NCBI GenBank assembly: GCA_030039795.1
Contig: JASHUU010000011.1
Span: forward strand, 1-54,890
Length of the DNA: 54,890 nt
Direction: 5' to 3'
Source: Nitrososphaerales archaeon
GTDB taxonomy: Archaea > Thermoproteota > Nitrososphaeria > Nitrososphaerales > Gagatemarchaeaceae
This document shows, piece by piece, positions 25,566-29,832 of this stretch. The first letter of the stretch is position 1, and the number at the start of each line of letters is the position of its first letter. The notes beneath the pieces were generated by a model. The model did no database searches. It was not told where the DNA came from and saw only the letters and a program-made list of their open reading frames with translations. Position numbers and translations under genes: made by a program.

Positions 25566-28247
25566 TCACGAGCTCTTCATCAGCTCGAGCTTCTCAGGCA
25601 GGTACTTCTCCACTATGTAGCTGAGACCGTACCTCGCGAAGGCCTCCTGCTCGCTCTTCTTCTTGATCTTCAGGAACGTGTCCAGCTCGTCGTGCCACAT
25701 CTTCTCCGTGTATCTCGGGTCCGCCTTGAGTTCGTACAGTCTCTTGATGTCGATCTCAGTCAGCTTGTCCGAGGGCAGCTTGTACTTCACGATGTCGCTC
25801 GCCCACACCCCCAGCCACACGGCGTCGGGCGTGGTCAGTTCCCTCAAATGCGCAGCATTGGCCGAGTTGTGAAGCAGGACTCCGGAGCGTCCCCCGATGA
25901 AACGTTCTACCTCGGGGACCGAGATGTCGTAGACGTAGTCATCCGTCGATGGGGCCGGCGTCATCTCTGCGATGGGATCGAAGCTCACGTCGCTCTCGAC
26001 CAACGAGCGAACTTCTTCAAGGATGACTCTCAGCTCCGGCGAGGGCGGGCGCAGCTGGCACTCCTCCAAGTGATAGAGAACCTCCTTCAGGCGTGTCCTG
26101 TTGGTGCCACCCTCGATACCGGATTGAACGACCTCGCAGATCCGCCTGTAGAGGTTTTTCGCCGCGATGTCGTGGCTTCCGTGACTGAAAATCTCCTTCT
26201 TGAGGGAGACCAGTCCGCTGGCGACCACAGGGAAAGCCTTCGGCATCAGGTAGGAGCTGCTCCTGGTGGAAGCCAGATGTGCCAGGATGGTCGACCTGTC
26301 GTCCTCGTGGAGGATGGTCTGGACGAGCCGTTCCACCTCTGAGCTGCCAGACACGATGAGGCACTCCCCTCCCTTCGAAAGTGAAGCCGTCACGCCGATG
26401 TTCGACATCAGGTAGGCGAGCTCGGAGATGAGGCCGGGGTTCTTCATCTTCCAGACTATCCCGCCCGAGTTGGTGATGTAGCCGTCCCCGAAGCAACCTC
26501 TGAGGAACTCGAGGACGTGCTCCTTCCTCGCAGTTAGCATCACCCTCGGGACCCTCTTTCTTGCGAAACCCGTCCCGCACAATCTCAGGAAGAGGAGGCC
26601 CGTGGGAGTTCCCCCGAACCTGAGTTCCACTCCGTTGCCCGCCAAGTCGACCTTTCTCGTCATCGTCGCGCGCGGGAATACGGCCCGAATGCACGCCTCG
26701 GCGTCCTCCACCACTTCCGGCTCGTGGAGCCCGAATGACAGCACGACCGACCGGGGGACGCCCTCGACCTTCGTCACCCGTCCTTCAGAGATGTAGTACC
26801 CCAGTAGCCTAGAGAACTCCTTCGTGAGCCAGAGTCTCGCCGGAACCAAGTCCATTCTGTGGTGGTCCTTGCAGCTCACGAAGGCCGTGTGGAGATGTTT
26901 GGCCAGCTTCGGTTTCTTCGATCCGCGCTCGAACGTCTCCAGCTTCCTCCGCCTGTGGTACTTGGAGGCCTCGTCTTCAACGTGGACATAGAGCTTTGGC
27001 AGTTTCATCGCTTTAGACAATTCTAGCAGTTCGCCGACGACGTCTATGGCAAGAGGCCGCCTAGACGCTATCTCCGCCCTGCGTTCGACAACAAGCAGGT
27101 CCCCCTTCCTGATCTCAGAGGAAGGCACCGAGACTATCCTGCCCTCCCTAAGGAGGAATACGCTGTGGTTGGAGGTCACGGTCACTGACCTCCCAGAGGA
27201 GGTCAGAATGGTGAGGAGCGGCCAGGTCTTCCGGTGCCTAATCGCGGCTGACACAGGCATGAACCTTACTTTGTTCGCGTTGTCGACTGTAAGGACATCG
27301 AAGGGCACGCTTCCCGAGGCTTCGTTTTCGAAGGCATCGGTGAATCTTCCATACTTCTCCAGACAGGCATCGACGAACTCGCCGATCTTCACAAGTTCTG
27401 AATTGCCGTGGCCGTCCCTGACCATGATAGGCTCGTCTCGTTGGACCGACCCTGACCGACAAACCATCGCGATATGGGCCCCCCACGGGTCGGCGTCGCA
27501 GAGTATTCCGACGGGGAGCTTGAGCTCCTGGTTGAGGCGCCTGAGCAGGTATCTGGTCGAGCGCGGAGGCTGGCCGGCAGTGTTGATGAGCAGCGCCTTG
27601 TACTTTGTGTGCACGCGCTCCTCTATGAACCTAGTGAAGAGCCCGCCCTTCTCGATCGCAAGGACCATCTCTGCGTCCGTGTCGGCGAACTCCGCGGTCG
27701 TCAGCGCCGGCCCTATCATCACTCCGTCGGGGTTGGCCGACAGGTCCGCCTTCTTGCCCTCGTAGCCGGGGACCGTGTATTCTATCGTCATGTTTCCGAA
27801 AATCGCGCTCCTCTCTTCAGGGTAGATGTTCATGTCCTCCCTGGCCATCTGCATGAGCACTTCCAGGTCAGTGATGAGCTCGTCCGACTCCGCCTGGTCC
27901 TGGAACTCCACGTTGAACGCCTGCGCGGAGTAGAAGACGTCCCTCAGGGTGGACGTGCGCTTCTCGCCGACGAGCTTCTTGGCGAAGTACGCGAGCCAGA
28001 CGAGCTGGGTGAACGGCCTGATGTGCTTGATGTTCGACGAGGACTTCTTCACTGTCGTTGGGCCCAGGACGAACTGCTGGAGCTTCCTGTCGTAGACGAT
28101 GTTGCGCACGGAGCGGCTCGCCAAGGTCAGGCTGGGGAACCTCCCCTCGTCCAGGTCGTCGTAGACGCTCTCGCCCAAGTGCTTCAGCAGCGCCTGCGCG
28201 TTGGTCTTCCTAGCTTCTGCCGTACTCGTCGATTTTCTTTTGCTCAA
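25566..28247 (-). CDS. top6A: DNA topoisomerase VI subunit A precursor, interrupted by an intein
   Basis: 893 residues from a TTG with AAGGAG seven nt upstream, inside the end of the TopoVI-B gene (38-nt overlap). After removal of the intein (residues 267-794) the exteins give 365 residues, the normal size. The N-terminal winged-helix (CAP-like) domain carries the DNA-cleaving Tyr106 in TLRDVFYSAQ; the TOPRIM domain shows the metal Glu in VLAIEKGGLF and the Asp pair in CDADPWGAHIAM. The C-extein resumes at SANAAHLRELTTPDAVWLGV. With subunit B it forms the A2B2 type IIB topoisomerase that relaxes and decatenates DNA. The host protein is active only after splicing. Gene order RIO1, KH, TopoVI-B, TopoVI-A supports the assignment. 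Confidence 0.96.
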   Translation of the reverse strand: MSKRKSTSTAEARKTNAQALLKHLGESVYDDLDEGRFPSLTLASRSVRNIVYDRKLQQFVLGPTTVKKSSSNIKHIRPFTQLVWLAYFAKKLVGEKRTSTLRDVFYSAQAFNVEFQDQAESDELITDLEVLMQMAREDMNIYPEERSAIFGNMTIEYTVPGYEGKKADLSANPDGVMIGPALTTAEFADTDAEMVLAIEKGGLFTRFIEERVHTKYKALLINTAGQPPRSTRYLLRRLNQELKLPVGILCDADPWGAHIAMVCRSGSVQRDEPIMVRDGHGNSELVKIGEFVDACLEKYGRFTDAFENEASGSVPFDVLTVDNANKVRFMPVSAAIRHRKTWPLLTILTSSGRSVTVTSNHSVFLLREGRIVSVPSSEIRKGDLLVVERRAEIASRRPLAIDVVGELLELSKAMKLPKLYVHVEDEASKYHRRRKLETFERGSKKPKLAKHLHTAFVSCKDHHRMDLVPARLWLTKEFSRLLGYYISEGRVTKVEGVPRSVVLSFGLHEPEVVEDAEACIRAVFPRATMTRKVDLAGNGVELRFGGTPTGLLFLRLCGTGFARKRVPRVMLTARKEHVLEFLRGCFGDGYITNSGGIVWKMKNPGLISELAYLMSNIGVTASLSKGGECLIVSGSSEVERLVQTILHEDDRSTILAHLASTRSSSYLMPKAFPVVASGLVSLKKEIFSHGSHDIAAKNLYRRICEVVQSGIEGGTNRTRLKEVLYHLEECQLRPPSPELRVILEEVRSLVESDVSFDPIAEMTPAPSTDDYVYDISVPEVERFIGGRSGVLLHNSANAAHLRELTTPDAVWLGVWASDIVKYKLPSDKLTEIDIKRLYELKADPRYTEKMWHDELDTFLKIKKKSEQEAFARYGLSYIVEKYLPEKLELMKSS
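25866..27449 (-). mobile_element. Intein with LAGLIDADG-type homing endonuclease in TopoVI-A
   Basis: 528 residues, in frame, from Ser1 (SVQRDEPIMVRDG, block A) to the terminal HN of GVLLHN (block G), followed by Ser+1 of the C-extein. Block B is VTVTSNHSVFLL (TxxH type), block F is DYVYDISVPEVERF. Splicing residues Ser1, block B Thr/His, penultimate His, last Asn and Ser+1 are all there, so splicing should work by the standard class 1 route with Ser nucleophiles. Between the splicing blocks are two dodecapeptide motifs, RLLGYYISEGRV and FLRGCFGDGYITN, each with its acidic metal residue, so the homing endonuclease looks intact and the element potentially mobile. It sits 16 residues after the first TOPRIM metal Asp, in a highly conserved segment, as inteins typically do. 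Confidence 0.95.
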
Positions 28248-29832
28248 TCTCTATCTCCTTCGGGCCCTGGGCCGGTGCTTCTTCAGGCGCCTCCTCGGTC
28301 TCCTCTCCGCCCTCCTCCGCGGGCGCGCTCCCGGACGGCCCCATCAGGCGCTGGTACTCGGGTTCCTTCTTCTTTCCCGCGAGGTCGGTAGAGAACCTCG
28401 CGATCAGCGGGAGGTACTTGCCGTAGATGTTCAGCTTCTTCTGGACTGCTTCCATGCTCCCCTTCCTCGACAGGAATATCCCGAGCTGCCTCATGGCTTC
28501 GCGGACCGCGTTTCTGATCTCCCTCTCGATCTCGGGCCGGTCGGCGATGTACTCCTTCCCCACGGTCTTGTAGGGAATCCTGGTGGAGCACACGTGCGTT
28601 ATCACGCCCACGGGGGCCTCAGGGGACACGTGATACCTGCGCCAGTCTACCCCATTGAGCACCTCGAACGAGACGTCCGAGCTCTCGTCGTACAGGAGGG
28701 GGATGCGGTTGGCGAACCTGAACAGTTTGACGCCCGGTTGCAGCGCCTTCCCGCCGTAGGCCACGCCCACCTCGACGAGGAAGGGGAAGCCCGAGTACGA
28801 CGCGGGAGGCCTGCTGACGACCGTCGAGAACTCCGGCTGTAGCTCCTTGTTCATGCCCGCGAGCAGTATCTCCTCCCCTACCGGGGAGAGGACCGCCGCG
28901 TCGGGCTGGAGGAAGTCGGGGAACCTCTGCAGAGCGTCTACGATGGCCACGATCTGGAAGTTGTTGAGCCTCTTGGGCGGGAGCCTGGGGCTGACCCCTG
29001 CGAATTCGAGGAACCTGCCCGCTATCTTGTCGCCGACCCTGTGGAAGTGGGTCACCATGAACGACCTCATGTCGTGCTCCTCTGTGAGCTTCACGATACG
29101 CTTGAACGCCTCGACGTCTATCCCGTGCGGATGGGGCAGCGTCTCCTTGGGAGACGGCGGCATGGCCGACGTGGCGCGCTCGTAGAACGTCACCTGGCCC
29201 AGGGGATCGACGAACGTGATGTTCGCGTAGCTCGCCACCAAGGCGGTCTGCTTGAAGTATTCGCCGATCTTCTGGGAAGACCTGAGGTAGTCCCCCTCCA
29301 GGGTGAGGTCCACCCTCGTACCGGTGGTCCCGTTCGCCTCGCTCGACGTTCGCTTCAGCACCGTGGGCCTGTTCTCGCTGATGTCGATCATCATCTGGAA
29401 CGAGTGCTTCTTCTTCCCGTCGGCAGAGGTCGTTATGACGACCGGCCTGTTGGTCGTGATCTGCCCGTAGAGTATGGCCATGGTCCCACCCAGGCCGAAC
29501 ATCCCTCGAGACTGGCGCAGGACGTACTTGGACCCGTAGAAGACCTTGCCGAAGGCGCTGGGCACATGCTGGGGCGGGACGCCCGGGCCGTTGTCCAAGA
29601 CGGTCAGCCTGTAGGGCTTGGGGTCAGAGACGTCGGACGAGGACTCGTTGACCAGCCTGACGTAGACGTCCGGGGCGGTCCCGGCCATCTCTGCCGCGTC
29701 AAACGAGTTCTCCACGAGCTCTCTGACTGTCATGTAGAGGGCGCGCGCCGGGTTCGTGAATCCCGCGAGGTCCCTGTTGCGGTAGAAGAATTCTGAGGGC
29801 GATATCTCCGCGAAAGACGTCTTGCTACTCAG
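28210..29832 (-). CDS. top6B: DNA topoisomerase VI subunit B, apparent CTG start
   Basis: 540 residues if read from CTG at 29832. The GHKL ATPase domain shows the N-box (VRELVENSFDAAE), N-terminal to the Bergerat motifs LDNGPGVPPQ and FGLGGTMAILYG, then the transducer domain with the Lys switch in the QRFPDFLQP and YSGFPFLVEVG regions. The first ATG (29733) lies after conserved sequence: the in-frame segment before it reads ISPSEFFYRNRDLAGF, the hallmark N-terminus of this subunit. Upstream of it only CTG precedes an in-frame TGA; no ATG, GTG or TTG is available. AAGGAG lies nine nt before the CTG. From CTG the protein starts MSSKTSFAEI if the CTG is read as Met, which matches the length of known homologues. 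The last 40 residues are acidic and Pro-rich. ATP-driven gate of TopoVI. Confidence 0.94.
   Translation of the reverse strand: MSSKTSFAEISPSEFFYRNRDLAGFTNPARALYMTVRELVENSFDAAEMAGTAPDVYVRLVNESSSDVSDPKPYRLTVLDNGPGVPPQHVPSAFGKVFYGSKYVLRQSRGMFGLGGTMAILYGQITTNRPVVITTSADGKKKHSFQMMIDISENRPTVLKRTSSEANGTTGTRVDLTLEGDYLRSSQKIGEYFKQTALVASYANITFVDPLGQVTFYERATSAMPPSPKETLPHPHGIDVEAFKRIVKLTEEHDMRSFMVTHFHRVGDKIAGRFLEFAGVSPRLPPKRLNNFQIVAIVDALQRFPDFLQPDAAVLSPVGEEILLAGMNKELQPEFSTVVSRPPASYSGFPFLVEVGVAYGGKALQPGVKLFRFANRIPLLYDESSDVSFEVLNGVDWRRYHVSPEAPVGVITHVCSTRIPYKTVGKEYIADRPEIEREIRNAVREAMRQLGIFLSRKGSMEAVQKKLNIYGKYLPLIARFSTDLAGKKKEPEYQRLMGPSGSAPAEEGGEETEEAPEEAPAQGPKEIEIEQKKIDEYGRS

Follow-up and report, generated by a model that had tools for sequence, protein, structure and literature searches.

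An intein interrupts the catalytic domain of topoisomerase VI subunit A

We found that the gene for topoisomerase VI subunit A (Top6A) of an archaeon of the family Gagatemarchaeaceae (Nitrososphaeria) is interrupted by an insert at positions 25866-27449 that we confirmed as a class 1 intein, here called Top6A-b. (Positions are those of the window, the whole 54,890-nucleotide stretch of DNA that was analyzed, and the parts of top6A and top6B given below lie on its minus strand.) From its sequence and a structural model, we consider it very likely that Top6A-b is mobile, excising itself to leave an intact 365-aa Top6A and homing by means of a LAGLIDADG endonuclease.

The precursor gene (25566..28247), assigned by Pfam, NCBIfam and PDB alignment, encodes 893 amino acids from a TTG start. 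It consists of an N-extein (27450..28247; 266 aa, ending in ...DADPWGAHIAMVCRSG), the intein (25866..27449; 528 aa, Ser1...His527-Asn528, residues 267-794 of the open reading frame) and a C-extein (25566..25865; 99 aa plus stop, beginning with Ser+1 of SANAAHL...); the junctions read ...DADPWGAHIAMVCRSG / SVQRDEPI...VLLHN / SANAAHLRE..., and 365 amino acids remain as the product. The preliminary description of this DNA had given the same coordinates, the 528-residue length and the 365-residue remainder, all of which agreed exactly with the translated open reading frame, and had omitted the strand.

The host protein is Top6A, a homologue of meiotic Spo11. It matched the Pfam models TOP6A-Spo11_Toprim (PF21180; 9.2e-48) and TP6A_N (PF04406; 2.3e-14), and the Methanosarcina mazei enzyme (M. 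mazei Top6A, PDB 2q2e) aligned with it in two pieces, 13-262 and 794-890 (E 3.9e-58). These alignments place a winged-helix domain (WHD) and a TOPRIM domain, with the Glu and the DxD pair, in the extein residues 1-266 and 795-893 of the precursor. Based on alignment to solved Top6A structures, the catalytic DxD consists of D251 (27495-27497) and D253 (27489-27491), both in the N-extein, and the insertion point lies 13 residues past the second Asp, as expected from the earlier placement of the insert in the TOPRIM domain beside the catalytic Asp pair. The neighborhood is ordinary archaeal core genome: directly upstream lies top6B (28210..29832; top6b model, 4.5e-129), which overlaps the start of top6A by 38 bases, followed by genes for a KH-domain protein, RIO kinase, GrpE, DnaK and DnaJ, and on the other side are genes for an M20 peptidase, a metallo-beta-lactamase and a LigB-type protein.

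The insert carries both splicing and endonuclease parts. The N-terminal HINT splicing part (27075..27449; intein residues 1-125), which matched the TFIIB mini-intein 5o9i (6.8e-31), includes block A (27411-27449) and block B, VTVTSNH (27165-27185; 89-95). It is followed by the LAGLIDADG homing endonuclease (26265..26837; 205-395), assigned by Pfam, by dN/dS and by the I-DmoI and PI-PkoII folds, with motif 1 LLGYYISEG bearing E222 (26781-26807; 215-223), block D from Lys298 to Pro301 (26547-26558), and motif 2 FLRGCFGDG bearing D322 (26481-26507; 315-323). A four-helix segment (25998..26252; 400-484) leads from the endonuclease to the C-terminal HINT part (25866..25997; 485-528), which contains block F, YVYDISVPEVERF (25899-25937), and block G, VLLHN (25866-25880), and is followed by the Ser+1 codon (25863-25865). 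All of the motifs quoted previously, SVQRDEPIMV, VTVTSNH, LLGYYISEG, FLRGCFGDG, the terminal HN and Ser+1, are present.

The insert scored above the curated cut-offs with Intein_splicing (4.7e-18) and LAGLIDADG_3 (PF14528; 9.8e-7) of Pfam, and with intein_Nterm (TIGR01445; 4.5e-10) and intein_Cterm (TIGR01443; 2.4e-4) of NCBIfam, which supports the earlier reading of an intein whose splicing blocks are complete and whose LAGLIDADG endonuclease looks intact. The sequence features and the predicted fold of a class 1 intein are found: Ser1 in block A, T-x-x-H in block B, HN plus Ser+1 in blocks F and G, and the HINT fold. An AlphaFold2 model built from 14 allelic sequences (mean pLDDT 84.7) was compared with solved structures by Foldseek; the best match was PI-PkoII (2cw7; E 7.9e-29, TM 0.72), followed by VMA inteins, PI-PfuI and, lower down, I-DmoI. 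Across 19 allelic sequences, S1, T92, H95, D508, F517, H527 and N528 are invariant, and Ser+1 is also present. The Ser residues at both junctions, which had been singled out as less usual than Cys, are indeed there; they are common to all alleles at this site rather than a peculiarity of the window copy.

We infer the following course from this anatomy. The intein would be translated as part of the Top6A precursor and would leave it by an N-to-O acyl shift at Ser1, transesterification by Ser+1, cyclisation of Asn528 aided by His527, and an O-to-N shift that yields the intact 365-aa Top6A. The LAGLIDADG endonuclease of the same polypeptide may cut the uninterrupted top6A of intein-free cells, presumably at the codons around SG/SANAAHL (here and below the slash marks the insertion point), and recombinational repair would then copy the intein into the cut gene.

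The same site is occupied in part of one archaeal family

The preliminary description had proposed a search for the same site in relatives, and this search was positive. We searched 46 genomes of the Gagatemarchaeaceae, mostly metagenome-assembled; the related archaea come from soil, mine and groundwater, and SubAcS15-15 is listed under this family (Group I.1c) (PMC10640624). The insertion site of the window, which we call site b, was occupied in 20 of the 44 readable genomes, by a full-length intein in 18 and by a mini-intein in two, and was empty in 24. Thirteen of the full-length copies are in the window's genus, and the other five are in four other genera (G033, G031, G068, G035 and G062; the G068 copy ends at a contig edge). 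The 19 allelic inteins comprise 16 different sequences; some carriers have identical proteins, so the carriers are not all independent.

The two mini-inteins occur in two further genera, G032 (313 aa; L031:2894-3832) and G034 (278 aa; L032:2332-3165). Both have lost the LAGLIDADG motifs and retain all or part of the helical segment that precedes block F. Because both endonuclease-less forms retain part of it, this segment may have a role in splicing or folding, as its retention suggests.

The closest relative of the host, G020, has a Top6A about 96% identical to that of the window and an empty site b, GTTTGTCGGTCAGGCTCAGCGAATGCGGCACAT. We considered the possibility that the insert is a normal domain of Top6A and ruled it out, since close relatives have the same gene without it (...CRSGSANAAHL... 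in G020). A lineage-specific domain that is retained in mature Top6A would agree with the frame being open throughout; its probability is next to nil, given the matches to Hint/intein and LAGLIDADG models and folds, the precise empty sites in close relatives, and the fact that such a domain would occupy the TOPRIM catalytic domain.

Beyond the family, 400 genomes of the class were searched and no copy at site b was found. In a wider search of 84,980 species with two peptide patterns, all relatives with more than 40% identity among the 80 best matches were from Gagatemarchaeaceae. A single-sequence scan of genome contigs gave no match; an alignment-based scan recovered the relatives. Site b is established throughout one archaeal family, a distribution that the preliminary description had not seen.

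Top6A-b alleles probably move between genera and keep a constrained endonuclease

The occupied or empty state of site b changed at least 10 times on the extein tree (43 family rows), and the intein and extein trees conflict. The extein tree keeps the window's genus together (support 87/88), whereas monophyly of the inteins of this genus was rejected (p-AU 9.7e-7). Specifically, the inteins of G026 and G002, both of the window's genus, group with those of G033 and G031 of other genera (100/100), and the inteins of G035 and G062, from other genera, are placed nearer to that of the window. The repeated changes of state and the conflict between trees argue that Top6A-b is probably a homing element.

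In deep pairs with the window, the endonuclease segment had a dN/dS of 0.10-0.14, as strict as that of the splicing segment, with several of the synonymous distances saturated; that of the extein was about 0.06. The acidic residues E222 and D322 of the two LAGLIDADG helices are present in the window copy and are kept by every full-length allele with the sole exception of G024, which has E222G and in which the endonuclease is relaxed (dN/dS 0.32 against G022). These ratios indicate that the intein endonuclease is under purifying selection. Together, the empty, invaded, decaying and endonuclease-deleted forms would correspond to the stages that a homing cycle is expected to pass through.

Decay of this kind within the family, with E222G in G024 and the endonuclease deleted in two other genomes, lends something to the view that the window copy is itself dead, an insert that neither splices nor homes and leaves top6A a pseudogene here. 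That view is barely plausible, as the window copy keeps all splicing and endonuclease residues in an open frame, the extein is constrained as noted above, and the genome yielded no second top6A. A second, intein-free copy of top6A was detected neither in the host genome (79% complete) nor in more complete carriers.

We saw nothing clear that would mark a co-conversion tract beside the insertion; the dip in identity just downstream of site b also occurs between two intein-bearing genomes. An origin from phages or plasmids was considered and rejected: plasmid proteins gave no match and phage proteins a single weak one (24%). A scan of viral contigs with the intein gave weak partial matches only.

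The host lineage apparently relies on topoisomerase VI as its sole type II topoisomerase

Subunit A of gyrase or topoisomerase IV (PF00521) was not detectable in 41 relatives, while 12 of 14 control genomes were positive. Thus, topoisomerase VI is apparently the sole type II enzyme of the host lineage, judging from gene content. If so, an unspliced Top6A precursor should be harmful, and splicing would be necessary rather than regulatory; active Top6A presumably requires it, which is less than the control of an essential topoisomerase by splicing that the preliminary description had stated.

The same observations can be turned toward regulation. If splicing were conditional on temperature, redox state, metal or DNA, the intein would switch topoisomerase VI activity on or off after translation, and its position 13 residues from the DxD pair, the want of a gyrase or topoisomerase IV back-up in the 41 relatives and the strong conservation of the splicing residues would all make sense. 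We nevertheless regard a regulatory intein as highly unlikely: occupancy is patchy, with at least 10 gains or losses and nearest relatives that have no intein; purifying selection on the endonuclease accounts for persistence without regulation; and the sequence bears no sign of a sensor, with no Cys at the splice junctions. Since occupancy is patchy and the endonuclease is selected, a selfish element fits better than a domesticated switch.

In a separate observation, the Top6A of family f8 (L047 in G043 and L048 in G057) is only 27-28% identical to that of the window, compared to 56-67% in most families of the order, which could reflect replacement by a foreign topoisomerase VI.

The neighboring top6B gene has a candidate +1 frameshift in relatives

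The gene top6B has one extra base near its start in 19 of the 46 genomes of the family, one of them the single-contig G005. The shifted gene reads ...TCN GAR TTY TTT C TAY MGN AAY..., between sequences encoding the conserved peptides EISPSEFF and YRNRDLAGFTNPARALYM; in every case the additional base is a C that follows TTT, and the zero frame usually meets a stop a few codons later (loci L213-L231; for example G005:C1:1341614-1341640, G022:C2:321996-322022 and G033:C5:145019-145045). The in-frame version was found at 21 matching loci, mostly as TTC TAY, including the window (29768-29793). The shift state changed at least eight times on the Top6A tree, and the motif was not seen beyond the family among 400 genomes of the class. 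We considered a link between the shift and the presence of the intein and rejected it, as all four combinations are common. Recoding in archaea is described as unequivocal only for Sec and Pyl readthrough and one -1 frameshift, and a haloarchaeal virus is mentioned in which a +1 shift is likely (PMC8037382). From the conserved pattern, the shift in top6B is a candidate for programmed +1 frameshifting, in which tRNA-Phe may slip from UUU to UUC.

In the window the ATG-initiated open reading frame of top6B begins at 29733, and the conserved N-terminus continues in frame to a CTG at 29830-29832. The window and most congeners encode this N-terminus without ATG, GTG or TTG, and the CTG lies in the context CTGAG[TC]AGCAAG. 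We conclude that this CTG is probably the top6B start codon, judging from this conservation.

Top6A holds a cluster of intein sites

Site b is one of several in Top6A; its three neighbors had escaped the preliminary description. Site a, TD/SDPWG, splits the catalytic DxD pair and is occupied in G068 (L056) and G069 (L057), as well as in G734 (L208) and G423 (L262), which belong to distant families of the phylum; the G068 copy has a terminal Arg-Asn in place of His-Asn. Site c, A/SDIVKY (A/SDI..KY), lies 22 residues past b and is occupied in G032 (L031), G062 (L052) and G069 (L057), with the start of an intein seen in G031 and G035. Outside Gagatemarchaeaceae it is occupied in G087 (L180), where the LAGLIDADG motifs are degenerate, and in G440 (L197). 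A fourth site, F/TDCDAWG, one residue ahead of the first catalytic Asp, is occupied in two Micrarchaeota (L090, L091). These inteins share with Top6A-b the gene and the catalytic stretch, and differ from it in insertion point; each of them starts with Ser, and wherever the C-terminal junction is present the +1 residue is Ser or Thr.

In several cases two inteins share one gene: a mini-intein at b with c in G032, b with c in G062 and G031, a with b in G068, and a with c in G069. When b and c inteins from one gene are compared, they are only about 26% identical (L069, L081), so they are neither allelic nor the result of a recent duplication. Together, sites a, b and c and the Micrarchaeota site make Top6A an intein cluster. 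It is very unlikely, in our judgment, that the TOPRIM stretch is both an unrecognized archaeal intein hotspot (at least four sites in about 40 residues, in several archaeal lineages and with some genes holding two inteins) and the seat of splicing that acts as a condition-dependent decatenation switch wherever topoisomerase VI is the sole type II enzyme.

Three side observations concern other inteins. In G035, contig C62 (L054/L066) has an intein at both b and c, and the frame is broken in the 22-residue spacer between them; on contig C139 (L055) the last part of intein b precedes a site c that is empty; the two versions reflect either strain variation or misassembly. Top6B inteins occur in another family of the phylum (L201, L202 and L207; G532, G643 and G522), and that of L207 lies within the GHKL N-box (RELVEN/SLDAAE), a site different from the one near residue 70-75 that is occupied by Top6B inteins of Halobacteria and DPANN. 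Other inteins of Nitrososphaeria also sit at catalytic motifs (L082, L092, L129), in an ATPase P-loop (HN/TGAGKSN) and in MCM helicase.

Top6A-b in relation to known inteins

According to the preliminary description this is not known to be a well-described insertion site, and in the open-licence literature that was searched we found no description of any Top6A intein site. Several Top6A and Top6B sequences have been noted to contain inteins, which were removed manually, with the sites not given (PMC9348778), and a phylogenetic survey of topoisomerase VI lacks the word "intein" (PMC11302465). The present work documents a set of inteins in Top6A, clustered at the catalytic metal-binding motif, in a family in which close relatives cover the whole homing cycle, with empty, full, endonuclease-decayed and mini forms. 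They offer a natural series for the study of homing, of gene flow in uncultured soil archaea, of interference between neighboring inteins, and of the cost of interrupting a type II topoisomerase that is apparently the only one. In addition, the Ser1/Ser+1 inteins are candidate tools for protein engineering. The +1 shift in top6B of the relatives may be a more surprising lead than the intein itself.

Among known systems, PI-PkoII, intein 2 of the Thermococcus kodakarensis (T. kodakarensis) DNA polymerase, is closest to Top6A-b, being both its best sequence match (1.2e-39) and its best structural match (TM 0.72). It is likewise a full-length archaeal intein with HINT and a two-motif LAGLIDADG endonuclease, but differs in host protein and insertion site, is only about 21% identical in the structural alignment, and would be expected to have a different DNA target. 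Known halobacterial Top6B inteins (PMC4071816) interrupt the partner subunit of Top6A, at a point near residue 74 of the Top6B open reading frame in the window; they are not allelic to Top6A-b, and Top6B-intein loci (for example L086 and L089) are among its nearest non-allelic relatives at about 25% identity. Finally, the haloarchaeal MCM inteins a-d (PMC10643990) likewise crowd several sites into one replication-related gene, but in a different gene, where interference between neighboring inteins has been studied by experiment.
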